Notes under the pieces: generated by a model | Told to the model about the DNA's origin: nothing | The model's database searches: none | Seen by the model: only the letters and a program-made list of their open reading frames with translations | DNA from: a virus | IMG/VR virus record: IMGVR_UViG_3300028837_000158 | Coordinates: 1 to 39,343 of that record | Direction: 5' to 3' (one strand) | Length of the DNA: 39,343 nt | Translations under genes and position numbers: made by a program | Shown: one piece after another, positions 517 through 28,104 of the stretch | Layout: each line of letters begins with the position of its first letter | How positions within the stretch are numbered: position 1 is the first letter of the stretch

Positions 517-3500
517 ATGCCTGATGGTATAGATTATAGAGCCGAGCTGGACAAACTCTCGCCTGAAAAGCGTGAGGGTTATATATCCAAGTGGAGAGAT
601 TACCTTGGTGGACTTCCACAGCCAGTCTATACTCAAACTCTAACACGTTTAACCAGACAGTATGGCCCCGAATTTGCTTCTGCATTGGTCAGCCCAGAGT
701 TACTATCTGTTGAAACCGTACCACCACCAATTACCGAAGCTCCAGCTAAAAAGCTAAAACCAGAGCTTCCGTGGTATCAGAAGCCTTTGGCTTGGGCGTA
801 TGAGCAACCAGCTCTTAAACCAGCTCTTAAGGGATTAGAGGCATATCATAAAGGCTGGATTGCACCAGCAGCTATGACTGTAGCTCAGTTTGCTTCGCCT
901 CAATTAAGGCAACAACTTGGTGGTAGGCAACCATTTGAACTCTCTGAGGAAGAACGTTATCGCATTTGGGAAGAAGAAAACCAAATGCCGTGGCTGCTTA
1001 AGACCATACCTGAATTAGCTGTTGACCCATTGATGTATCTTGGTTGGGGTCTAGCTCCAAAAGCCTTGAAAGCAGCAGAGATGGCTGGGATGAAGGGTTT
1101 AGCCACAGCAATTAAGCCAGTAGCCAGCCTAGAGGAAGCCTACATCAAAGCAGCAGGAGCACCGATAAGGGCTGTTGGCAGAGAACTTAGGAAGATTCCA
1201 GAGATACAGCTAGGCACAATAGCTGGCAAACCTAGAAAGATTGGTGCTCTTTTTCAAGAATCAGCCCGTTCTATGGTAAACAATGAATCACTCCGTACGT
1301 ATGATTTACTAAGAAATTTGGATGCCGCTGGTGCTCAAGTTGGTAAGCCTCTTAGCCAAACTCTACAAGATATTAGGATGGGAGTAGTTGACCCAACAAT
1401 AACCAATACAATCACCAATCCTCAACAGAGAGCCACTTTAGCCCGCTTAATCCAGAATAAGGATAAGCTGGATTTAGATGTAATAGCTAAAGTGGTAGAT
1501 AGCTTTCCGGAGCGTGCTCCAGTAGTTCTTGCTCGAAAAGAAACTGCTTTGTTGGCAAAGGAGCTGGGGCGTACTGTCCCATCTAAGACACCCGGCGTTA
1601 TAGCACTATCTAAGGATATGTATGGTCTATGGAAGCGGACAGTCCTTACTACTTTTTGGTATGTAGAGCAGAATATAGTGGAGAACTTTATAAGACCAAT
1701 AATGGTTGGAGTTAATCCACTTAAAGACATAAACGCAATAGTAGCTAGTCCAATCTTCAAAAGATGGCCTATAGATATGCAGCGGCGGGCTCTCAGTTTT
1801 GCTCAGAGATGGAATCAGGAGATACCAGAAAACTTGAAGTGGGCTCGCTCAGTCTCCACTGGCGGTCTTACAGAGTCCATGTCTGGCTCTCTAGCCACAG
1901 GCAAAGGTTGGCCTACACTAACTGCTGGAGCCACTTTAGATGAACAAGCTATGTTGCGGACTTTCGACTATATGTATGAGTCATTTGAACGGGAACTGAT
2001 GAAGAAAACCAGTGCCAAGACAGCAAGTGCATTGGCAGAGATGGACAAACTTTTCGATGATGCTATATTGGGAATATCAAAGCAGCAGCCACGCTTTATT
2101 GCCTTAGTGGATGACGCAGCTAAGGAAGCATGGAGAATGGATAGGAATAGGATTGCACAGTTATACCTGTCCGATATTGAAGGGAAAGTTAGCCAGCCTC
2201 TATTAAGAGAAGCATCCGAAGATTTGGTACGAAAAGTTGAATTTGAGGCTGTTAAGATAGCTGGTGGTGCTGACGTTTTGAAAAAACCAGAGTTTGTAAA
2301 ACTTAAAGGTTTAGAGGATACTGGAACCAAAATTAAAATGATGGATTTTGATGGCGTTATAGCTCTGATACATGAGTTTCCATCTGGCCCCGTAGCCGCT
2401 GAAAGGATAATGGAAGGTGGTATCAAAACTTTTGATACTCTTTTTAAGGGTAAAGAAAAAGTTATCAGGAGTTGGATACCCATTGAACCACAGCTTCTTG
2501 AGCATCTTAAATCGGCTTCCATCTCAGGCTCCACAGATGATGTCCTTGCCGCTTTTGCTGAAGCCCAGCGTAACAAAACCATGGCTATAGCCAGAGCTAT
2601 TACTCAAGCTGAAAAAGGATTGCCAGATGCAATCCGCTCAGGTATTAAAAAGGAGCTGCCCAGACTTTGGGCTCGTAATGACCTTCCAGCTATAGAACGC
2701 CTATTCCGGAGATATGAATTATCTTTACCACAACAAATTCAAACTTACCAAAAACAAGCCCTGCTCCAGCGTTTGAGCTACTATAAGAAGCTAGTAAAGC
2801 AATCGGTTCCACAGAAATACCAGCCTCTATATAACCAACTTCTTAATCGCTTTAAGTTTGAACGTGTGGCAGATAGAGAAGCCAGATTGACTGCTGCCAA
2901 GACACTTACCGAATTTGAGAGTGCTATGTTTAATGCCAATCTTGAGAGTATGCGTGAGATGGAGTCTTTGATTTTGGGCAATGTAATAGCGGAATCCATC
3001 GCTACTAAACAATATACTAAAATATCCACTTATGTTGCCATCCATGAGCAAATAGCTCAAGCTGCTTTTAGGGCTGGTGATGAATTAACTTCAAAGACTT
3101 TTGCTCTGACCAAGGTCATCAAATTCGCTAAAGACCCAAAAAAGATTCAGCAGGGATGGGATGAGTACATTATGCACATCCAAAGTGAGTTTCCAGACCA
3201 AGCAGCTATACTGCAAGCATCTGTACCAGATGCCGACCTGTTATGGGCAACCCGTAGAGCTGTTCAGGATAGACGCTGGTTTAAGGTTAGCCAAGATGAG
3301 TTGGCAGCTATGCAGATGGACCCATCTAAGTTCCCAAGATTAACTGATGCCAACGGTAAGCTGCTCACAATGGAAGACTACTTAGGCAAGCAAAAGGTGG
3401 CACTTAATTCTTGGAAAGACCGTGCAATAGAAGCCTTCTCCAAACGACACGAAGTACCAACCACTAAAAATAAACTTCTTGACACTCTCCGTAATGAAAC

Positions 3501-5244
3501 TGTCCGCATTAAGGAATCCATATCTCTCCAAGAACTCAAGCTACAGAACGAAGCAATGGATTTGGCTCAAGAAATCGCCTATGATACATTTGGTAATTAT
3601 GGAGTTCGCACTAACCTTGACGATATTATGCAAGGTATTGGTATGCCATTCTGGTTCTTCCCATCTCGCAGTATTCCATTCTATGCAAAGCAGATGTTAC
3701 AGAAGCCAAAATTAGGCGTTGAGGTTATGACTTTACAGCAACAAGCTGAAGAATCTAACTTACCAACTAGACTATTTGGTTATGTTAATGTCCCCAATAC
3801 TGATTACTATTACAATCCATTAGCAGCCTCTATGCTCTGGCAATTAGCAGGGCAATATGATTGGACTCCCAGCCACTTAGGCGGACTTGAACAAGGTCAG
3901 TTGCAAATGCAGCAAAAACTTGGTATGTCGTTTGGGCCACAATGGATGATTGCTACATCACTTGTATCCCGCCTTATGACTAAACATGGTGGCGCTCCAT
4001 TAGTTGTAGGTGAACCCAAGTATATTATCCCTCAGCATAGATGGCTTGAGGCTGTGGAGAATTTAGATTTGCCGGGTTTATCTCAAATAGCTGGTATAGC
4101 TTCTGAACCATTCGATGCTTACCTTAGAGCAGTATTTGGCTCAGAGGTAGCTGAATGGCAGAAGCGGGAAGTGGAGAAATATATTGTAGATATGGGCTAT
4201 AATCCGCAAGACTTAGAGCGTATACCTAAAGCAGTAATCCAAGATGGCTGGAACAAATACTGGACTAGACAGTTACTTTCTATTCCGGGTGGTGTGGTTA
4301 AAGAAATGACACCAACCGAGAAAGCCCGCTTTGATATGATGGGCGAGAAAGCTAGGGAGTTGGGTTTGACAAAGAAGGAGACCATAGCACTTAGGGCTGC
4401 TGGTGAAAGTCCATGGACAGGACTCCGCCAAGACCAATTAGAAGCCTTATTTGCTGATATTCCAGCTCAAAAACTTAATCGCTATATCCGTCCAATAGGG
4501 CTAACCTCAGAGAGTAGACCAATCTGGGAGGATTATATCCAACTCAAGATTGAGCGTGAAACTCTTAGGGGAGACCCAGAGAATCCACAAGTGGGTAGCC
4601 GTATCTATAAGGAAATGAAACTCGATGAAGCTCTCAAAGCTGGTCGTATTAGTCCAAGAGAATGGAAGTCTTTATATCGCCAGAACTATGCCGACTATGT
4701 TAGCCAAATTAAAGCACTTGAGAGAGCGTACCCACAGGCTCCAAAGACTGAGCAGGATTGGGCAGCATATCGTGATTTGCTAGGCTGGGATGAGCCAGTT
4801 CGTCATCCAGACGACATCAAACTAGATGAGTATTATGATGTTATGGATTCCACCCATTTTGAGAATGACTTAGGCGAATTTGATTACAATGCGTATAGAC
4901 AAGCTGAACAACAATTTTTCCAAGGGTTGTCTCCAGATACAGTAAGCTACATTGAAGCCAGAAAAGACCGTTACAAAACTCCATTACGAGCAGCTTACAG
5001 TCGTGATATGGAGAAAGCTCAGCCATATTATGATATATATGATGCGATGTTGGCTGAGTATCCACCACGAGTCAGAGAGTTAATTGAATATGTATCTACA
5101 ATACCAGACCCAATTATTCAGAAGGCGGTCTTAGCCAGCAATCCATTAGTTGCTTTACTCTTGCGTAGAATCAGGCTAGTCAAACGCCAATTTAGGCAGG
5201 CTAATCCAGATATTGACAAAATACTACGCTATTGGAGTAGCTGA
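517..5244 (+). CDS. giant 1575-aa virion protein candidate (internal/ejection or polyvalent protein)
   Basis: The longest gene in the genome, 1575 residues, started by an ATG behind GAGG. It is largely alpha-helical and soluble by inspection, with many charged helices (for example residues 480-620 and 900-1030). Two stretches resemble conserved patches of large phage polyvalent proteins: YVEQNIVENFIRPIM near residue 385 and GMPFWFFPSRSIPFYAKQML near 1040. The second recalls LPD38-type regions; this is resemblance, not a search result. No catalytic motif was recognised. Its place between portal and scaffold/capsid genes fits a protein packaged in the head and ejected with DNA. A tape measure role is possible but the composition is not the usual long heptad coiled coil. 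Confidence 0.7.
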   Translation: MPDGIDYRAELDKLSPEKREGYISKWRDYLGGLPQPVYTQTLTRLTRQYGPEFASALVSPELLSVETVPPPITEAPAKKLKPELPWYQKPLAWAYEQPALKPALKGLEAYHKGWIAPAAMTVAQFASPQLRQQLGGRQPFELSEEERYRIWEEENQMPWLLKTIPELAVDPLMYLGWGLAPKALKAAEMAGMKGLATAIKPVASLEEAYIKAAGAPIRAVGRELRKIPEIQLGTIAGKPRKIGALFQESARSMVNNESLRTYDLLRNLDAAGAQVGKPLSQTLQDIRMGVVDPTITNTITNPQQRATLARLIQNKDKLDLDVIAKVVDSFPERAPVVLARKETALLAKELGRTVPSKTPGVIALSKDMYGLWKRTVLTTFWYVEQNIVENFIRPIMVGVNPLKDINAIVASPIFKRWPIDMQRRALSFAQRWNQEIPENLKWARSVSTGGLTESMSGSLATGKGWPTLTAGATLDEQAMLRTFDYMYESFERELMKKTSAKTASALAEMDKLFDDAILGISKQQPRFIALVDDAAKEAWRMDRNRIAQLYLSDIEGKVSQPLLREASEDLVRKVEFEAVKIAGGADVLKKPEFVKLKGLEDTGTKIKMMDFDGVIALIHEFPSGPVAAERIMEGGIKTFDTLFKGKEKVIRSWIPIEPQLLEHLKSASISGSTDDVLAAFAEAQRNKTMAIARAITQAEKGLPDAIRSGIKKELPRLWARNDLPAIERLFRRYELSLPQQIQTYQKQALLQRLSYYKKLVKQSVPQKYQPLYNQLLNRFKFERVADREARLTAAKTLTEFESAMFNANLESMREMESLILGNVIAESIATKQYTKISTYVAIHEQIAQAAFRAGDELTSKTFALTKVIKFAKDPKKIQQGWDEYIMHIQSEFPDQAAILQASVPDADLLWATRRAVQDRRWFKVSQDELAAMQMDPSKFPRLTDANGKLLTMEDYLGKQKVALNSWKDRAIEAFSKRHEVPTTKNKLLDTLRNETVRIKESISLQELKLQNEAMDLAQEIAYDTFGNYGVRTNLDDIMQGIGMPFWFFPSRSIPFYAKQMLQKPKLGVEVMTLQQQAEESNLPTRLFGYVNVPNTDYYYNPLAASMLWQLAGQYDWTPSHLGGLEQGQLQMQQKLGMSFGPQWMIATSLVSRLMTKHGGAPLVVGEPKYIIPQHRWLEAVENLDLPGLSQIAGIASEPFDAYLRAVFGSEVAEWQKREVEKYIVDMGYNPQDLERIPKAVIQDGWNKYWTRQLLSIPGGVVKEMTPTEKARFDMMGEKARELGLTKKETIALRAAGESPWTGLRQDQLEALFADIPAQKLNRYIRPIGLTSESRPIWEDYIQLKIERETLRGDPENPQVGSRIYKEMKLDEALKAGRISPREWKSLYRQNYADYVSQIKALERAYPQAPKTEQDWAAYRDLLGWDEPVRHPDDIKLDEYYDVMDSTHFENDLGEFDYNAYRQAEQQFFQGLSPDTVSYIEARKDRYKTPLRAAYSRDMEKAQPYYDIYDAMLAEYPPRVRELIEYVSTIPDPIIQKAVLASNPLVALLLRRIRLVKRQFRQANPDIDKILRYWSS

Positions 5245-19192: not shown

Positions 19193-19918
19193 TTACTTTT
19201 CTCCTTTCACTGCTTTTATTAACCTTTTGGCAGTCGCTGTGCCAATTCCGTCACAAGCAAAACTAATTGCTTCTGGTGCCAAGTGTATTGCATCCCACAA
19301 ACTACCAATCTGCTTCAATAATTCCATTGCTTTCTTCTCACCTAATACCGCACCTTGTTCATCTTTTATTCCCATAATAGTCTCTATCATCGGATTGCTC
19401 TGCCACTTAATAGGTTTAGTCCGTACATAATGCTTTAGTAAAGTGTGTTCAGTTCTCTGGCTATTCTCAACAAAGCTCTTTAATGCCCAAGCCGAGCCTG
19501 ATATAGTGGAAGTATGATATACCGATATACCTTCTTTGTCTAGTCTCCAAAGATATGCCATCACATCAGCATACTTAGCTCCACTAATCTTTACTCTCCG
19601 TAAATATCTATCATTCTTACTCTCTTGGAAGATAGCTATTTCACCACCAGCTAATGGCAAAGCTACGCCCTCTACAAGTAGTCCCACTTCGTCAGCATGA
19701 TTAGTAGCTGTTCTTAATTGTTTCTCCAATCTACCAAGACTATTCAGTAAGTCTAACCAATACTTACGCTCAATGGTTATGCTATGCCCATCAATAGCAG
19801 ACCAGAAATAATCACAAAGCCCTTGCTGTACCAAGTTCTGCCGATGGACTTGCATGAATGTGGAAAGTAGTCGTTCCATGTAGTCCGGTTCATAAACGTC
19901 TTGGACAATAAAACTCAT
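19193..19918 (-). CDS. ERCC4/XPF-type nuclease with helix-hairpin-helix
   Basis: 241 residues from the ATG at 19918; an in-frame TTG at 19927 is a poorer choice because it overlaps the upstream gene. The active-site signature ID43 with E50-R51-K52 and D56 (AIDGHSITIERKYWLD) matches the GDx(n)ERKxxxD motif of ERCC4 nucleases. A C-terminal helix-hairpin-helix (CDGIGTATAKRLIKAVKG, about 221-238) would bind DNA. Such XPF/Mus81-like enzymes cut branched or flap structures, so this one probably resolves recombination or replication intermediates. A phage enzyme with both parts on one short chain is compact. The eukaryotic helicase domain is absent. Confidence 0.85.
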   Translation of the reverse strand: MSFIVQDVYEPDYMERLLSTFMQVHRQNLVQQGLCDYFWSAIDGHSITIERKYWLDLLNSLGRLEKQLRTATNHADEVGLLVEGVALPLAGGEIAIFQESKNDRYLRRVKISGAKYADVMAYLWRLDKEGISVYHTSTISGSAWALKSFVENSQRTEHTLLKHYVRTKPIKWQSNPMIETIMGIKDEQGAVLGEKKAMELLKQIGSLWDAIHLAPEAISFACDGIGTATAKRLIKAVKGEK

Positions 19919-19919
19919 T

Positions 19920-20096
19920 TTAGCCAATTCCTATTCTCTTTATGGAGTTGGTTGTCTTTAAGTGTAAGCCAAACTGAACCATCATGCAAGCGGGGAACTC
20001 CAGATGGCATCTGGGGCAGTAATACCAATCCCTGTCCGGATGCTGAGACAATTCAGCCTCACACTTTGGGCATCTATACCCTATTCTGTTTTCCAT
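19920..20096 (-). CDS. 58-aa zinc-ribbon microprotein
   Basis: ATG shares its A with the stop of the Sak4-like gene (TAATG at 20096) and its TAA lies 2 bases from the nuclease ATG. CPKC (9-12) and CPRC (27-30) form a zinc ribbon; a basic C-terminal tail follows. Located between recombination genes, so a DNA-binding or protein-bridging role in recombination is plausible. Not a named family. Confidence 0.7.
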   Translation of the reverse strand: MENRIGYRCPKCEAELSQHPDRDWYYCPRCHLEFPACMMVQFGLHLKTTNSIKRIGIG

Positions 20097-20893
20097 TATT
20101 CATTCTCCATACAAGCCTTCTTTATTCCATCAATAATTAGCATTAGACGCTTATAGTCGGGTTCCATTATCTCTATTCCGAAAGCAGTAGGTGGATTTGG
20201 TGTCAAGATTCTAGCCACTGTTTTGAGTCTCAACGGATTTAAGTCCTTGCCAGTCTGTGGGTCAACATTAGTATTCCTAAGAAATAACTGCAAATGGTGG
20301 TCAGTTAGATATGGAATCTCGTTGAACCCAGCGTGCGTTTTTTGACCAGTTTTTACGGACTCCTTGGTCATAGAGCCATCTGATTTTTGGACAAACTGTT
20401 CTTGGTAAACATCTGTTTCGTAATGAGATATGATTAGCAGTTTGTTAGCTTCTCTGGCTGCCATAATCTTGGCTCTAGTCCTACTGTTTGGCATCCGATA
20501 CTCAATTTGTTGCAGTTGGTGTCTCTTTGGGTTATTACGTTTGACATAGTTCTCCAGATATTCATCTGCATTTAGCTTGTGCATTTGGCTCCCAGTATCA
20601 ATGAACAATACTCTAACTTGTGGGTCACTTAGAGCCATTTCATACATACGTTCAAAGTTAGCCCACTGTTGAGTTATAGCTCCACTACCTAAAGTCCAAG
20701 TGGGTACTTCTGGGAACTGCACCGACTTGATTCGGTCAGCTATATTCGGTTGGAATCTCCAGATAGCACGTTCTCTGCCCAAGTCAAAATCAAAATGGAT
20801 TTCGATACCATCCTGAAATGACTTAGCAGCAGAGAAGCCAAACGTAGTCTTGCCAGTCTTTTCTGCACCATAGTACGTGATAACTTGACTCAT
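20096..20893 (-). CDS. Sak4-like RecA-superfamily ATPase (single-strand annealing/recombination)
   Basis: 265 residues. Walker A G9AEKTGKTT17 close to the N-terminus, Walker B VRVLFIDT (93-100), and a following polar segment QMHKL. The short N-terminus and Walker A start after a beta strand fit the Sak4 group of phage RecA-like annealing proteins (AAA_24 domain). It lies among ERCC4 and Cas4-like nuclease genes, as expected for a recombination set. Ends in TAATG coupled to the zinc ribbon. ATPase call is firm, Sak4 subgroup is by resemblance. Confidence 0.8.
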   Translation of the reverse strand: MSQVITYYGAEKTGKTTFGFSAAKSFQDGIEIHFDFDLGRERAIWRFQPNIADRIKSVQFPEVPTWTLGSGAITQQWANFERMYEMALSDPQVRVLFIDTGSQMHKLNADEYLENYVKRNNPKRHQLQQIEYRMPNSRTRAKIMAAREANKLLIISHYETDVYQEQFVQKSDGSMTKESVKTGQKTHAGFNEIPYLTDHHLQLFLRNTNVDPQTGKDLNPLRLKTVARILTPNPPTAFGIEIMEPDYKRLMLIIDGIKKACMENE

Positions 20894-21306
20894 TGCCCAC
20901 CTCCAAACATATGTCTAAAGAAGTCTGAAATGTCTGGGGGAGCATCATCCTCGCTACGGCTTACCACCTTGAAGCCTACCCGCACTCCGATTTGGTCGTT
21001 CCACAACTCCAACTCATCTCTAATACTAATCCACAAAGCAGTTCTTAGTAAAGAAGTCTTGGCTCCAAACTCGTTGGCTTTGGCTTCCAACTGTGTCTTC
21101 TCGTCACCAGTACAATATCGGGAGTCTAGGTTAAATTGCTCCGATTGTTTCTGGTACAAGTTGGCTAATACAAACAACCGCTTGCAAACGCTAGACATTT
21201 CACCAACTACAACTTCTCCATCTTTCACTTCATTATCTGGCTCGATAAGTTCAGCCTCGTCCATGCTGTCTAATTCTAATGGTAATAACCTAATCCAAGT
21301 GGACAT
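20890..21306 (-). CDS. 138-aa acidic protein between recombination genes
   Basis: Start taken as the ATG at 21306, the A lying 2 bases after the Cas4-like stop and preceded by AAGGAG; a longer in-frame reading from 21435 would overlap that gene by over 120 bases. 138 residues with a helical middle (QLEAKANEFGAKTSLLRTALWISIRDELELW) and a Gly-rich end FFRHMFGGGQ. The 3' end overlaps the Sak4 start by 4 bases. Not recognised; association with the recombinase is suggested only by coupling. Confidence 0.6.
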   Translation of the reverse strand: MSTWIRLLPLELDSMDEAELIEPDNEVKDGEVVVGEMSSVCKRLFVLANLYQKQSEQFNLDSRYCTGDEKTQLEAKANEFGAKTSLLRTALWISIRDELELWNDQIGVRVGFKVVSRSEDDAPPDISDFFRHMFGGGQ

Positions 21307-21307
21307 T

Positions 21308-21976
21308 TTATTTCTCCTTCCTGAGATTACAATGTATGGCAGAATCTCCATACCTACAGTTTTTACACTCCCAATCCTGACACCACTTTGTGGGAGTAGG
21401 TGGTTGCTGGTCTGCAAAACTTTGGATATAGACATCCTTTCGCCACATCAGATAATCCCAGTTATCTTGTAGCTCCTGCTGGGTGAACATAAACTTCACA
21501 GCTAGAATCTCTGGAAAAGGTGGTTTATATCCACCCATCAAGTGAACTACACTGAGTCCATATTCCAACTTCTTTTCAGCATAGCAATAGCCCTTAATCT
21601 GTTGTAGCCAAGTCTCAGGAAACTCTCTGGTAATTGTTTTCTTGGTACTCATTCTGGTAGTTTTGAGTTCTGATGGCAAGTCAGCTTTGAACCAGAAGTC
21701 TGGGCTATAGTCAACGCCTTCACAAGTTCCGGGGCTGGCACGTTTATCTTCTGGAATTATCACCCTCTCGAAGCCAATACCCAATGCCATAGTAATTGCC
21801 TGTTGTCTTGCTATTGATAGTGGCATAATCCTGTCCCAATAAGAAGATGTTAGGCAATAGATAAGTTCGGTCAAATGGATGCCAGCACTCCTTACTGGAA
21901 CAGTCAGTTCTTGGACTCTTTGTATGAGCCACCGATAGGACTCATCAGCTAGTTCTGGATAATCTTCAACTATCAT
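21308..21976 (-). CDS. Cas4-like PD-(D/E)XK exonuclease with Fe-S type cysteines
   Basis: 222 residues, ATG behind GGAGGAATTGT. Core: D93 (GVDYSPDFWF), E103-L-K105 (SELKTTR) and Q126 in a following helix, which is the PD-(D/E)XK arrangement. One Cys at 41 (LTELIYCLTSS) and three at 204, 207 and 216 match the four cysteines that hold the iron-sulphur cluster in Cas4/AddB-type nucleases; C199 is extra. Such enzymes resect DNA ends 5'-3' or 3'-5' and pair with a single-strand annealing protein such as the Sak4-like product downstream. No cas1 or CRISPR is present, so a role in spacer capture is unlikely. Confidence 0.85.
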   Translation of the reverse strand: MIVEDYPELADESYRWLIQRVQELTVPVRSAGIHLTELIYCLTSSYWDRIMPLSIARQQAITMALGIGFERVIIPEDKRASPGTCEGVDYSPDFWFKADLPSELKTTRMSTKKTITREFPETWLQQIKGYCYAEKKLEYGLSVVHLMGGYKPPFPEILAVKFMFTQQELQDNWDYLMWRKDVYIQSFADQQPPTPTKWCQDWECKNCRYGDSAIHCNLRKEK

Positions 21977-24079: not shown

Positions 24080-24273
24080 CTTTTACCCCACGTAGACGTG
24101 ATTAAAATAATTCCAACTATAACTGGCACTCCTACAACCATAGCTATACCCAATGCAATTAGCACTTCACGCAATGGGTTCTCTGACTTGAGTACACCAA
24201 GACATATGATAGCTAAAAGTGGACTTACTACCAATGCAATCCCAAGAGCCTGCCTTATTTTTTCTTTTTTCAT
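24076..24273 (-). CDS. 65-aa two-helix membrane protein
   Basis: Overlaps its neighbours by 4 bases on both sides. Two hydrophobic segments, ALGIALVVSPLLAIICLG (about 9-26) and VLIALGIAMVVGVPVIVGII (37-56), with a charged N-terminus (MKKEKIR) that should remain inside. No motif. Its position in the early operon suggests a membrane-targeted takeover or exclusion protein rather than late holin, but this is unproven. Confidence 0.65.
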   Translation of the reverse strand: MKKEKIRQALGIALVVSPLLAIICLGVLKSENPLREVLIALGIAMVVGVPVIVGIILITSTWGKR

Positions 24274-25025
24274 GGTACTACCTCAAACGCAGCCAAAGCT
24301 CTGTTCAGCTGCAAATTTATCGGCTTGAGGACATCTTCACTATGGCGGCACTCAAATTCCAGCCTTATCTTATCCTGTGCTACTGGAACTAAGCTAATCA
24401 TAGAGTCTGCCCACTGTGCAAGATGATAAGTTCCCGTCATTTCCTGAGCACCAAGGTCAACTACTCCACCACTCTGTCCAACTTTTGATTTCCTAGTGTG
24501 ATGGCAAATAAGTATGGAGACTCCATAACTCCATATCAATTTATCACAGAAGTCAGTGCAAGCCATTACGCTTTCCTCGCTTGTGGCACTGGCTGATAAC
24601 ATCTTCTTTAGTGGGTCAAAGATAATCAAATGTGGTTTATGTATGGCTACCAACTTCTCCATTTCTACTTGTCCAGTTGGAGTGTCTAGTCGTACTCCCA
24701 TCAAATCGCTAACCATACATAAGTTACTGGTCATAGTTGTACCACTACCTTTACAATACTTGCGTAGTCTGAATTGCCAGCCTCTATGTCCCACTTCAAA
24801 GTTCATATACAGCAATTTTTTTTGGTTAGTCTTAAACCCCAACCAGTCTTTTCCATGAATTACTGCTAGTGCAAGCTGGTTGAGCAGTAAACTTTTACCC
24901 TTCTTTGGTGGCCCAAACATTATCACTTTCATGGCAGTTGGTATTATACCACTTCCTATTATGTAGGGTAAGTCTGGAAATGTTTGAGACAAATAGGTTG
25001 CCCCATCATACACATCCAGAGACAT
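24270..25025 (-). CDS. RepA/DnaB-type RecA-fold ATPase (replicative helicase or loader)
   Basis: 251 residues. Walker A G38PPKKGKS45, E77 on NFEVG, Walker B LIIFDP (133-138), and SILICHHTRKS as the sensor-like segment near 175. This matches AAA_25/RepA-type proteins, single-domain relatives of DnaB. With no other helicase in the genome it is the best candidate for unwinding at the replication fork. No DnaG-type primase or DnaB N-terminal domain is visible. It follows an HTH microgene after 3 bases. Confidence 0.8.
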   Translation of the reverse strand: MSLDVYDGATYLSQTFPDLPYIIGSGIIPTAMKVIMFGPPKKGKSLLLNQLALAVIHGKDWLGFKTNQKKLLYMNFEVGHRGWQFRLRKYCKGSGTTMTSNLCMVSDLMGVRLDTPTGQVEMEKLVAIHKPHLIIFDPLKKMLSASATSEESVMACTDFCDKLIWSYGVSILICHHTRKSKVGQSGGVVDLGAQEMTGTYHLAQWADSMISLVPVAQDKIRLEFECRHSEDVLKPINLQLNRALAAFEVVP

Positions 25026-25028
25026 CTA

Positions 25029-25208
25029 CTATTTGCTCCCAGCCAATATATTGTCCAATGAACTTCGTGCTATGCGGATAGTGCCATTTGGAAGGACTAT
25101 TCCGACTATCCATCCACGCTTTACCCATCTATAAAGAGTCCATTTAGAAATACTAAGAATAGCCGCTGCTTCTTTGGCAGGAACAAAGCTCTCCATAGTT
25201 GTCTCCAT
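25029..25208 (-). CDS. 59-aa excisionase/MerR-like HTH protein
   Basis: ATG shares its A with the stop of the zincin-vWA gene (TAATG). VPAKEAAAILSISKWTLYRW (9-28) is a helix-turn-helix of the HTH_17/excisionase type, followed by a wing (GIVLPNGTIRIARSSL). Such proteins bind DNA as small dimers or as directionality factors; here no integrase exists, so a transcription-control or replication-initiation role beside the RepA-type ATPase is more likely. It is a candidate binder of the TTATGTCAAG sites. Confidence 0.75.
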   Translation of the reverse strand: METTMESFVPAKEAAAILSISKWTLYRWVKRGWIVGIVLPNGTIRIARSSLDNILAGSK

Positions 25209-26956
25209 TAAGGCTTACCCCCCATCTTATTTAGATTTACTTGCTCGACCAGTATTTGATATAGTGCATCTGGAAACTCAGCTAGTCCAGATAGCTGTCT
25301 CCAGTTCATACCGTCATAGTCATAGTGTTTGGTCTCACGCCCCCAAATTAGATTGACTAATTCAATGCCTCTAGGCTTGATTATCCAGTTGGCATTCCAT
25401 GGCGGAAGACTACAGTTATGCTCACCATCAGTGAGGTGAATTATTAGCCCACCACGCTTCATGCCTAGTGATACACCAACTATAGCTAGACCACTGGGAG
25501 TATTACCAGTGGGTTCATGTTGGTGGACTAACTTACCATCATCAACTCTTATCAAATCCACCTTTGTACCCGTGTTATAATAACACCAAACCTCAGCATT
25601 TACCAAGGTCTGCAATGCTCCAGCAGCTTGCAATACCTCATCAGCTTGCCGACCAGACATAGAGCCAGACAAATCAATTAGTATCTTGGTATCTGGAAAT
25701 CCATCTGGAAATTTGTACTTTAAGTTGAATATGCGACCATCCGTAGAGACTCTATGTAATTGGCACTTATCAATTTTGCCATATTGTTCACCATACATAG
25801 TCCTCGACTGGAGTCTTTTGCGTATAGTCATAATCCGTTCCAGCCTTTTGCATAACAGGAAATCAGGTTTAATCATTGGAGTCTTAGTTTCACGGGAACG
25901 AATTACTGGAAGCTGTCTTACTCCACCTATTCCATCAAGTTCCTTATCCACTTGTTCAGTTATATCTTCTGAATCGGACTGGACAGCATCTTCTATGGCT
26001 TTAGCCAATTCATCACCAATGTTATCCTCTGGAGTGTGTGTTAGAGGTGGCTTCAAATTATCATCCTTACTATCGTCATCAGTATCAGTGTTTGTTCCAG
26101 CTCCATTATCATCTTCATCCTCATCATCATCTGGCTCATCCTCTTTGGTATCATCATTCTGGCTGGTAGACATTCCAGTGGTAATCTTGGGCTCATCAGG
26201 CTCGTCATCTGGTTTATCATCTGGTGGTGTGACTGGTGTTTGTGTTGGTGCTGATGATTTTGGTGGCTCAGGCATAGTCAATATAGCATCCTTAACCATA
26301 TCCCAACAATTAAGATAAGCCTCAAGTCTATTGGATGGCCCAGCACGAAGCCCAGCTTGTCTAAGCCATTTATCTAACTCAACTAACCGATGCATTGCTT
26401 CTTCAAGCTCTGGTATTATATTGAATAATCTGTCCGACTTGTGCCCCAAAGAATACTCTATCCACAACTCCAGTAGCTTATGTGGCTGGGCTTCCCGCAT
26501 CTTACTAATAGCCCAAGTGGATAGAGCCCGCTCATAGTCTGCTAAGTTTGAATTGGAACGCATCATTTCCTCAACAACAATATCCTCACCAATGTTCATA
26601 AAGGTTTGGAATAGTTCCCCCTCTGCTAACGCTGTTATGGAACTGTGCCCACCAGTTAAGTGACTAGTTTCAATAATGTAATGCCCAACTTCATGGAGCA
26701 TCAGTCCAACTAATATGTCAAAGTTATCGGCTGGTACTGGAGCCTCAGTGAATAGGCTACCACCCCCAATGAGAACTTCTTTTTGCTTACTTACAAAGTC
26801 AATACCACTAGATTCACCTTTGGTAGTGAACTTCACATTGAAATCGGATGGTAGCCCAGCAGCACCAGCCACTTTCTTGAGTGCTTTAAGAACTTGGGCA
26901 CCCTCGACTGGCATAAGACTGGATTTATTGATTCGCCAATTATCACTCCTTGCCAT
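25208..26956 (-). CDS. zincin-like + von Willebrand A domain protein, partner of MoxR ATPase
   Basis: 582 residues from the ATG at 26956, which has GGAG 7 bases upstream; the longer frame begins with a TTG at 26980. The N-terminal part holds HEVGH (88-92) and NIGEDIVVEE (121-130), matching a metallopeptidase-like HExxH site with a downstream Glu. Residues 230-345 are a highly acidic, Pro/Asp-rich linker. The C-terminal vWA domain has the complete metal site DLSGS (428-432), T486 and D510. This order, and the MoxR gene just upstream, resemble CobT-like/vWA proteins that are substrate-binding partners of MoxR-type ATPases. The role in phage is unknown: chaperone, remodelling or peptidase. The domains are clear; the system is not. 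Confidence 0.85.
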   Translation of the reverse strand: MARSDNWRINKSSLMPVEGAQVLKALKKVAGAAGLPSDFNVKFTTKGESSGIDFVSKQKEVLIGGGSLFTEAPVPADNFDILVGLMLHEVGHYIIETSHLTGGHSSITALAEGELFQTFMNIGEDIVVEEMMRSNSNLADYERALSTWAISKMREAQPHKLLELWIEYSLGHKSDRLFNIIPELEEAMHRLVELDKWLRQAGLRAGPSNRLEAYLNCWDMVKDAILTMPEPPKSSAPTQTPVTPPDDKPDDEPDEPKITTGMSTSQNDDTKEDEPDDDEDEDDNGAGTNTDTDDDSKDDNLKPPLTHTPEDNIGDELAKAIEDAVQSDSEDITEQVDKELDGIGGVRQLPVIRSRETKTPMIKPDFLLCKRLERIMTIRKRLQSRTMYGEQYGKIDKCQLHRVSTDGRIFNLKYKFPDGFPDTKILIDLSGSMSGRQADEVLQAAGALQTLVNAEVWCYYNTGTKVDLIRVDDGKLVHQHEPTGNTPSGLAIVGVSLGMKRGGLIIHLTDGEHNCSLPPWNANWIIKPRGIELVNLIWGRETKHYDYDGMNWRQLSGLAEFPDALYQILVEQVNLNKMGGKP

Positions 26957-27113
26957 CTGCAATCTCCAATATCTCCTCAATCAGCTTACTCATATTCCAA
27001 TCACCATCGTAGTCGGAATCGTAATATGGCATGGCAGTACGGAGCAAAATTTCCAGTTTGACCCGCCTCTGCTCCCCCATCAATCTTAGAATATGTTTAA
27101 TTATGGTTATCAT
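26943..27113 (-). CDS. 56-aa protein between MoxR and vWA genes
   Basis: ATG shares its A with the MoxR stop (TAATG at 27113) and its TGA lies 14 bases inside the vWA gene. 56 residues, a basic helical N-terminal half (MITIIKHILRLMGEQRRVKL) and an acidic second half with YYDSDYDGDW. Small, coupled and always in step with both partners, so it may be a third component of the MoxR-vWA module. No family recognised. Confidence 0.6.
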   Translation of the reverse strand: MITIIKHILRLMGEQRRVKLEILLRTAMPYYDSDYDGDWNMSKLIEEILEIADGKE

Positions 27114-27943
27114 TATAGCACCACAAAAGCGTTTTGAGTACCATCAGGAACACTAACAACACCATTGCCAACAAAGTCCAGATGTAACAAGATACTCTCC
27201 AGTTTATCCTTATCCAGAGCCACATTACTAATGATTGCATGGCGCAAGCCCAATCCCATCTGTATCAACTCTGCCATCATTAGAACACGCCTAGTTGATA
27301 TGTGGATTGGGTCTTGCCCATCAAACCTGAGTTTGTTGACGAATTGGAGCAGTTTAGTCACCATTTCACCTGCCAGTCCAGTTCTAAGCACAATTAAGTT
27401 GGTCTCTTGTATTGCTGGTAAGTAGTCCAGTTGGACAATATGAAACCTATCTTCCAATGCTGCATCAAGTGGGTCTATACCAGTATATTCAAAGCCCTCG
27501 TTGAGAGTGGCGACAAAGACTACACCATTTGCCACTCTAACCTCGCCCAACTGTTCGTGTGCAATGGCTCTACCATCATCCAGCAAAGGGAATAGGTCAT
27601 TAAGTGCCTTGGGTGATTCTGGTCGATTAAGTTCTTCCAGATGAAGTAGGCTGTTTGGAGTCCTAACTGCTGTGGGAAACTTGCCTTCCACAAACTTAGT
27701 CTCTCCGCCTACCAGTTCGTATCGCCCCATTAGTTGACCTGTTTCTTGCAATGAGCCAATAGGTATAGGCACGTAGTCCATGCCAGCATTGACTGCCAGT
27801 TGTCTAGCACATTCCGACTTCCCCATTCCATGTTTACCCTTTACCAGAATATTGACGGGGTGGTTCCGCTTAGTCTCCATGACTTTGGTTAATTGGGTTT
27901 TGTTACTTTGACTAATAAAGAACGCTTGCTTTTTTGGAATCAT
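27113..27943 (-). CDS. MoxR-type AAA+ ATPase
   Basis: 276 residues. Walker A G36KHGMGKS43, a pore-like segment QETGQLMGRYE (66-76), Walker B LLHLEELNRP (99-108), sensor-1 N148 and an arginine finger in LEDRFH (163-168). This is the full MoxR/RavA signature set. The zincin-vWA gene follows after one 56-aa gene, the known pairing of MoxR ATPases with vWA proteins. The enzyme is expected to use ATP to remodel or insert metal into a target recognised by the vWA partner. A 54-aa gene overlaps its start by ATGA. Confidence 0.9.
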   Translation of the reverse strand: MIPKKQAFFISQSNKTQLTKVMETKRNHPVNILVKGKHGMGKSECARQLAVNAGMDYVPIPIGSLQETGQLMGRYELVGGETKFVEGKFPTAVRTPNSLLHLEELNRPESPKALNDLFPLLDDGRAIAHEQLGEVRVANGVVFVATLNEGFEYTGIDPLDAALEDRFHIVQLDYLPAIQETNLIVLRTGLAGEMVTKLLQFVNKLRFDGQDPIHISTRRVLMMAELIQMGLGLRHAIISNVALDKDKLESILLHLDFVGNGVVSVPDGTQNAFVVL

Positions 27944-28104
27944 GACCTATCCCCCCATTCCTCAATGTCATAGATGTCGGTGGACACTAAATCCTCTATA
28001 AGCTCGGATGGTTCCAAGTCATCAAACTTTCCGCTGGCTTCATCCTCATCTTCAGCGTCCACAAAGGTAGTCCCTTCAATTCTCCATCTTACTCGATATT
28101 TCAT
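27940..28104 (-). CDS. 54-aa acidic protein before MoxR
   Basis: ATG at 28104, preceded by GGAGGT; its TGA overlaps the MoxR ATG. Begins MKYRVRWRIEGTTFVDAEDEDEA, a small strand-rich opening, then a long acidic stretch (DLEPSELIEDLVS). The opening resembles short phage proteins of a beta-strand plus Asp/Glu type. Could be part of the MoxR module; no family is recognised. Confidence 0.6.
   Translation of the reverse strand: MKYRVRWRIEGTTFVDAEDEDEASGKFDDLEPSELIEDLVSTDIYDIEEWGDRS

Follow-up and report, generated by a model that had tools for sequence, protein, structure and literature searches.

The DNA analysed here, IMG/VR virus record IMGVR_UViG_3300028837_000158 (39,343 bases; this whole stretch is called the window), carries on its minus strand, in the region 25029-28104, a MoxR-family AAA+ ATPase gene together with a gene for a protein that holds a zincin-type domain and a von Willebrand factor A (vWA) domain. 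We propose, with about even confidence, that the two products form a remodelling machine with a AAA+ motor, of the same type as NorQ/NorD, CbbQ/CbbO and CobS/CobT, and not a cobalt chelatase. Five open reading frames (ORFs) reported here by a first-pass annotation are all present and tightly packed on the minus strand, and the arrangement that it had described, a MoxR protein plus a single chain bearing both HExxH and vWA, is conserved in two related viral contigs (L002 and L143) and in Chloroflexi. The small genes that it had counted as parts of the machine fared differently, as set out below.

The identity of the motor is firm. The MoxR protein (276 amino acids, aa; 27113..27943, minus strand) matches Pfam AAA_5 (5e-15) and CbbQ_C (5e-4) as well as phrog_249 (1e-26), and its nearest solved relative by sequence is NorQ in the PDB (2e-19). 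It is 71% identical to its counterpart in L002, 60% to a Chloroflexi chromosomal copy and 56% to that of L143. In NorQD, the pore of the ring takes up a finger that adjoins the vWA domain, and a loop of the form GRxLL/IxxxxT holds it there (PMC13036017). The helix-2-insert motif read in the window MoxR, GRYELVGGET (residues 73-82; 27698..27727, minus strand), whose role is taken from that paper, fits this docking motif at exact spacing. Furthermore, nearly all 59 partner proteins in the family carry a G-x-[LIMV]-[DNHS]-type motif ahead of the vWA domain, at which AlphaFold 2 (AF2) puts a helix and a hairpin in the window protein. The spacing of GRYELVGGET and the pre-vWA motif of the partners together support a putative mechanism common to the window pair and NorQD. 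The latter, a nitric oxide reductase activase with cNOR as its known target, also shares the MoxR plus vWA composition and the metal ion-dependent adhesion site (MIDAS). GvpN matches to the window MoxR, and GvpN and CobS matches to the Chloroflexi MoxR, fell far under the cut-offs and were rejected.

The partner protein (582 aa; 25208..26956, minus strand) has a zincin domain with the motif HEVGH at its N-terminus and the vWA domain at its C-terminus, joined by an acidic linker. Its start is ATG 26956, matched in L002 and L143, TTG 26980 being merely the mechanical first start of the ORF list. Searched alone, the protein gave no significant Pfam match and no useful PADLOC or NCBIfam match; the domain evidence comes from the family alignment, from the match of the family profile to CobT and from AF2 models. 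More specifically, the profile matches CobT at 2e-23 over most of the CobT length and NorD at 8e-10. In the AF2 model (medfa2a2b4c02) the head and the vWA domain are confident and the linker is disordered, and the best Foldseek match of the full model is NorD in NorQD.

The vWA domain of the window protein has the full MIDAS set, with D428, S430 and S432 in the motif DLSGS (D428-S432; 25661..25675, minus strand), completed by T486 and D510. All 59 family members share D428, S430, S432 and D510, an invariance that is partly by construction for the first three residues, because members were chosen partly by a D-x-S motif, and not so for the last Asp; the T486 column varies or is poorly aligned. 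In the head, the motif HEVGH (H88-H92 with the initial Met included, H87-H91 in alignments; 26681..26695, minus strand) is succeeded in the following helix by E124-D125 (E123-D124 in alignments; 26582..26587, minus strand), whose Glu is a candidate third metal ligand. The two His and the Glu of HExxH and the following Glu-Asp are invariant among 27 diverse HExxH-bearing, that is active, members, so that the motif to which the first-pass annotation had given weight is kept in close relatives. The head model (mean pLDDT, the per-residue model confidence, of 79) has 18 best structural matches that are nearly all metallopeptidases, including BlaR1, selecase, an M48-type protein and Spartan; a Foldseek search of the head against the PDB gave no match at E <= 0.001. 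These data support a predicted peptidase-type head in the window protein and most relatives, which probably binds metal and is possibly proteolytic. DUF2201, considered for its identical zincin-vWA domain order, was ruled out, since neither the window protein nor the window genome has a PF13203 match.

From the observed gene order, motifs, homology and clade we infer a complex, a finger-in-pore mechanics, a metal and a target, which would work together as follows. MoxR would assemble into an ATP-driven hexamer, into whose ring the vWA domain would dock. The finger just ahead of the vWA domain (about residues 388-418), bearing the conserved G-x-I/L-D motif, would go into the pore and be held there by the GRYELVGGET insert loops, and the MIDAS would grip a target protein. 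ATP hydrolysis would then twist the vWA domain relative to the N-terminal zincin head over the acidic disordered linker of about 130 residues, and the head (HEVGH...E-D), with its probable metal, may cut or clamp the target. The target would most likely be a protein or an enzyme complex of phage genome replication.

Across the family, the peptidase-like site varies. HExxH is kept by 40 of the 59 proteins, and parsimony requires no fewer than five changes of the active-site label along the tree; reading these as five losses presupposes no regain, which is formally possible. In a large degenerate phage clade, HExxH has become IQNAA or similar and the Glu has been lost at the same time. This joint loss points to the Glu of E-D as the likely third metal ligand. 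Cellular CobT has SMALR or AFALR at the HExxH position. The repeated loss of the head site in other members implies that the core function may be remodelling rather than proteolysis. The pseudo-peptidase clade comprises L034, L035, L045-L047, L078, L081 and their relatives, which have lost both HExxH and the third Glu and retain MoxR and the MIDAS. One Chloroflexi copy (L121:7043-8896) has HNAMH, with both metal-binding His present and the catalytic Glu replaced, and a C13-type peptidase gene lies nearby. In the viral contigs L015, L019, L020, L021 and L060, the head and the vWA domain are encoded on separate adjoining genes.

Among viral relatives, the nearest is L002, a 40.6-kb contig with the same gene order as the window and 56% identity in the zincin-vWA protein; L143, a 41.3-kb contig, has the pair and the following helicase gene. 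Searches of 50,697 phage records, with the operon at the DNA level and with the window zincin-vWA protein by tblastn, returned nothing. The closest cellular relative is a copy in a Chloroflexi metagenome-assembled genome (MAG; L094/L125), with 60% identity in MoxR and 45% in the zincin-vWA protein and a 4-base overlap of the two genes. Its contig also holds obgE, nadD, a gyrase-type subunit and ribosomal proteins (names read by eye). In five Chloroflexi chromosomal pairs the two large genes overlap directly, and the zincin-vWA profile was matched in 8 of 197 genomes sampled from the Chloroflexi class of L094/L125. On the tree, the window, L002 and the L094/L125 copy group at 100/100 beside the chromosomal Chloroflexi pairs, and the whole clade also stands at 100/100. 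The window pair, as placed by this tree, nests within a clade of chromosomal Chloroflexi pairs, a new cellular link, and Chloroflexi are therefore a likely host group of the phage. A terminase search for related prophages in the Chloroflexi genomes gave only distant matches, in 2 of 197, and so did not confirm this host assignment.

The chromosomal copies bring forward the first alternative, in which the pair would service a glycyl-radical or other metal enzyme of the host in the manner of BssE/BssF and so aid infection. In 4 of the 10 Chloroflexi loci that were read, a glycyl-radical enzyme gene lies close to the pair and a fifth locus has two activase genes; these five are not all independent, because two are nearly alike. 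Glycyl-radical enzymes are carried by 5 of the 8 Chloroflexi genomes with related proteins, and BssE/BssF is itself a AAA+/vWA pair in the benzylsuccinate synthase cluster (PMC7285207), standing by a glycyl-radical enzyme as some of the Chloroflexi relatives do. However, the linkage is found in sister loci and not in the closest one (L125, by obgE), and, unlike the BssE/BssF setting, neither the closest genome (G002) nor either phage record has a glycyl-radical match. Class III ribonucleotide reductase was dropped as the host target because it was found in just 1 of the 8 related genomes, several of which are MAGs and possibly incomplete. We consider enzyme activation unlikely for the phage pair. 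The loci concerned (L122, L123, L137, L138 and L139, in genomes G118, G021, G088, G168 and G141) place pairs by pyruvate-formate-lyase-like glycyl-radical enzymes and/or radical-SAM activases; some of these genomes have several pairs, in an arrangement that recalls BssE/BssF.

A replication target for the proposed remodelling machine is favoured because the pair lies in a replication operon here and because several unrelated phages also have it next to genes of replication or recombination. Directly after the region discussed so far follows an AAA_25 RecA-like helicase gene (24270..25025, minus strand; AAA_25 at 2e-23), which is the next conserved operon gene in the window, L002 and L143. Further downstream on the same strand, genes for a Cas4-like nuclease, a Sak4-like protein and an ERCC4-domain protein make up a compact recombination set (19193-19927 and 20096-21976) that shares the operon with the pair; this strand also encodes a DNA methyltransferase and a family A DNA polymerase. 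In S-PM2, the pair lies between gp46/gp47 and gp45/gp44; in SSU5, RHEph10 and nickie it adjoins DNA polymerase III alpha, ligase or primase genes; in BS162P1 a DNA polymerase gene is near; and in CRP-810 it stands at the genome end, near endonuclease V. The neighbours on IMG/VR contigs include rIIA/rIIB, a Cas4-type exonuclease, UvsX/RecA, DNA polymerase and uracil-DNA glycosylase.

Several observations weigh against the remodelling machine with a replication target. The fold scores of the head (Z <=7.2 for its best structural matches) lie under the noise level of the tool (Z<8) and are not decisive alone. The Chloroflexi copy that is nearest to the window has a degenerate form of the docking motif (GHDEFLDNQT), and among the chromosomal relatives the linkage is to glycyl-radical enzymes, not to replication. 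The IMG/VR neighbours are moreover mixed (rIIA/rIIB; tape-measure matches in 3 of 134 proteins), and the linkage of the pair with replication genes is therefore common and not universal.

The same neighbourhoods bear on a published proposal of virion assembly, in which the pair would remodel structural proteins, and the zincin would cut them, as heads or tails mature. This architecture, a metallopeptidase-vWA protein with MoxR, was described in jumbo phages by Iyer et al. 2021 (PMC7824862), who proposed the assembly role with an analogy to Acidianus two-tailed virus; the structural matches to the window protein include ORF892, the vWA protein of that virus. By that description, their group 2.2 pair resembles ours in that MoxR adjoins an N-terminal metallopeptidase-vWA fusion; in the window, likewise, the MoxR gene adjoins the vWA gene and a predicted N-terminal zincin-type domain is fused to vWA. 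In contrast to the jumbo-phage pair, the window phage has 39 kb, a replication operon and closest cellular relatives that are chromosomal in Chloroflexi. The pair and the DNA polymerase, Sak4-like and Cas4-like genes lie on the minus strand, whereas terL lies on the plus strand; several named phages also have replication-gene neighbours, and the cellular copies sit on chromosomal contigs. In the running text of the S-CREM1 virion proteome paper, the ORFs of the pair are not mentioned among virion proteins. On balance, an assembly chaperone appears improbable.

A more specific form of the remodelling machine, which we offer as a speculation with a rather low chance of being right, would make the pair an ATP-driven, metal-dependent protein processor at the replication apparatus, for example one that removes or cuts proteins stuck on DNA in the manner of Spartan with p97. 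Such a processor would explain phage 'cobST' in place of B12 synthesis, and cellular CobT would be one of several descendants without the peptidase site.

The first-pass annotation had also considered a host takeover or anti-defence machine. The zincin motifs are intact, and MoxR-vWA modules are known in conflict systems (PMC7159879). Yet the defence libraries lend the pair no positive evidence, with a best match at E = 0.008; its chromosomal copies have housekeeping surroundings, and it occurs in very different phages and hosts. Neither a VMAP nor an effector partner of the ternary conflict systems stands by the pair, whose neighbours are the small genes, the HTH gene and the helicase gene. 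We regard this role as doubtful.

That a phage CobST would use the CobN of the host and raise B12 for nucleotide synthesis, as hypothesised in print (Liu et al. 2021, PMC8651126) and in keeping with true homology to CobS/CobT and the porphyrin biosynthesis annotation of phrog_249, is very unlikely here, and for the window clade the evidence argues against a chelatase: CobN has no match in 8 of 8 Chloroflexi genomes with related proteins versus 5 positives among 14 control genomes, the scanned window proteins include no chelatase partner or CobN (as the first-pass annotation had said), the window protein matches none of the CobT models (Pfam CobT/CobT_C, NCBIfam CobT), and the window retains HExxH, which cellular CobT, the partner of CobN, has lost.

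In type the pair is nothing new, because it is part of the widespread phage 'cobST' or MoxR-metallopeptidase-vWA kind; the combination was already published for phages (PMC7824862, PMC8651126) and is no rarity there. The core genes of T4-like cyanophages include phage 'cobS', and hundreds of records contain the pair. Liu et al. found 'cobST' widespread in tailed viruses and called the 'peptidase' annotation of cobT mistaken. Phage 'cobST', including the cyanophage CobS plus 'peptidase' (Sullivan et al. 2010, PMC3037559), has the same domain order and an HExxH...NxxED motif, but is no more than about 16-19% identical to the zincin-vWA protein of the window, and forms a separate clade. The two published readings, B12 synthesis and virion assembly, conflict. 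We favour a third frame, a remodelling machine in which the metal site of the vWA domain is always kept and the peptidase-like site is usually kept in phages and repeatedly dropped. New here are the Chloroflexi chromosomal link, without CobN and with glycyl-radical enzyme or activase genes by the pair at five of ten loci, the contrast of a variable HExxH site with an invariant MIDAS across the tree, and the NorQ docking motif in MoxR. The question of function can be tested on this pair, which comes from a small phage and has a counterpart on chromosomes.

The remaining genes of the region are small. In the order of minus-strand transcription, a 62-aa gene is followed by the genes for a 54-aa acidic protein, MoxR, a 56-aa protein, the zincin-vWA protein, a 59-aa helix-turn-helix (HTH) protein and the helicase. 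The stop of the 54-aa gene overlaps the ATG of MoxR, the stop of MoxR overlaps the ATG of the 56-aa gene, and the 56-aa gene runs over ATG 26956; these overlaps suggest translational coupling from the 54-aa gene through the zincin-vWA gene. The 54-aa gene (27940..28104, minus strand) has a weak phrog_14649 match (0.001); a query without positive control found no match across the whole L002 record, and there is no recognisable counterpart ahead of MoxR in L143. The 56-aa gene (26943..27113, minus strand) has a 46-aa homologue between the pair in L002, a real similarity (score 59 against 44 as the best among 5000 shuffles), and is missing in L143, where a 13-bp gap takes its place, and in the Chloroflexi loci; it is a phage-specific companion. 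The HTH_17 gene (25029..25208, minus strand; 3e-8) has a homologue in L002 only, and in L143 an unrelated-looking 89-aa gene replaces it. A mad1 defence match of the HTH protein was judged generic for its HTH family. Lack of conservation of the two microgenes with the pair, which the first-pass annotation had named as grounds against its own reading, was thus found for the 54-aa gene and, outside L002, for the 56-aa gene. As the companions do not travel together with the pair, the two large genes are the machine and the 54-aa, 56-aa and HTH genes are local extras; there is no five-gene module.

The labels 'early' and 'lytic' that the phage had been given are inferred from an operon shared with replication genes and from the absence of an integrase match among the window proteins scanned, in which the only related signals were weak excisionase-type HTH matches to the 59-aa protein. 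A promoter/terminator scan yielded counts not clearly above those of shuffles (45 vs 34.7, standard deviation 6.1; 10 vs 10.8), so that no promoter is claimed. On the plus strand, positions 517-5244 encode a 1575-aa protein without any Pfam or PHROG match. In a plasmid collection of 1025 records, many plasmids of about 100-120 kb from enterobacteria and Acinetobacter carry CobT-like genes, which are named there as cobalamin or porphyrin genes; these plasmids are probably SSU5-type phage-plasmids.

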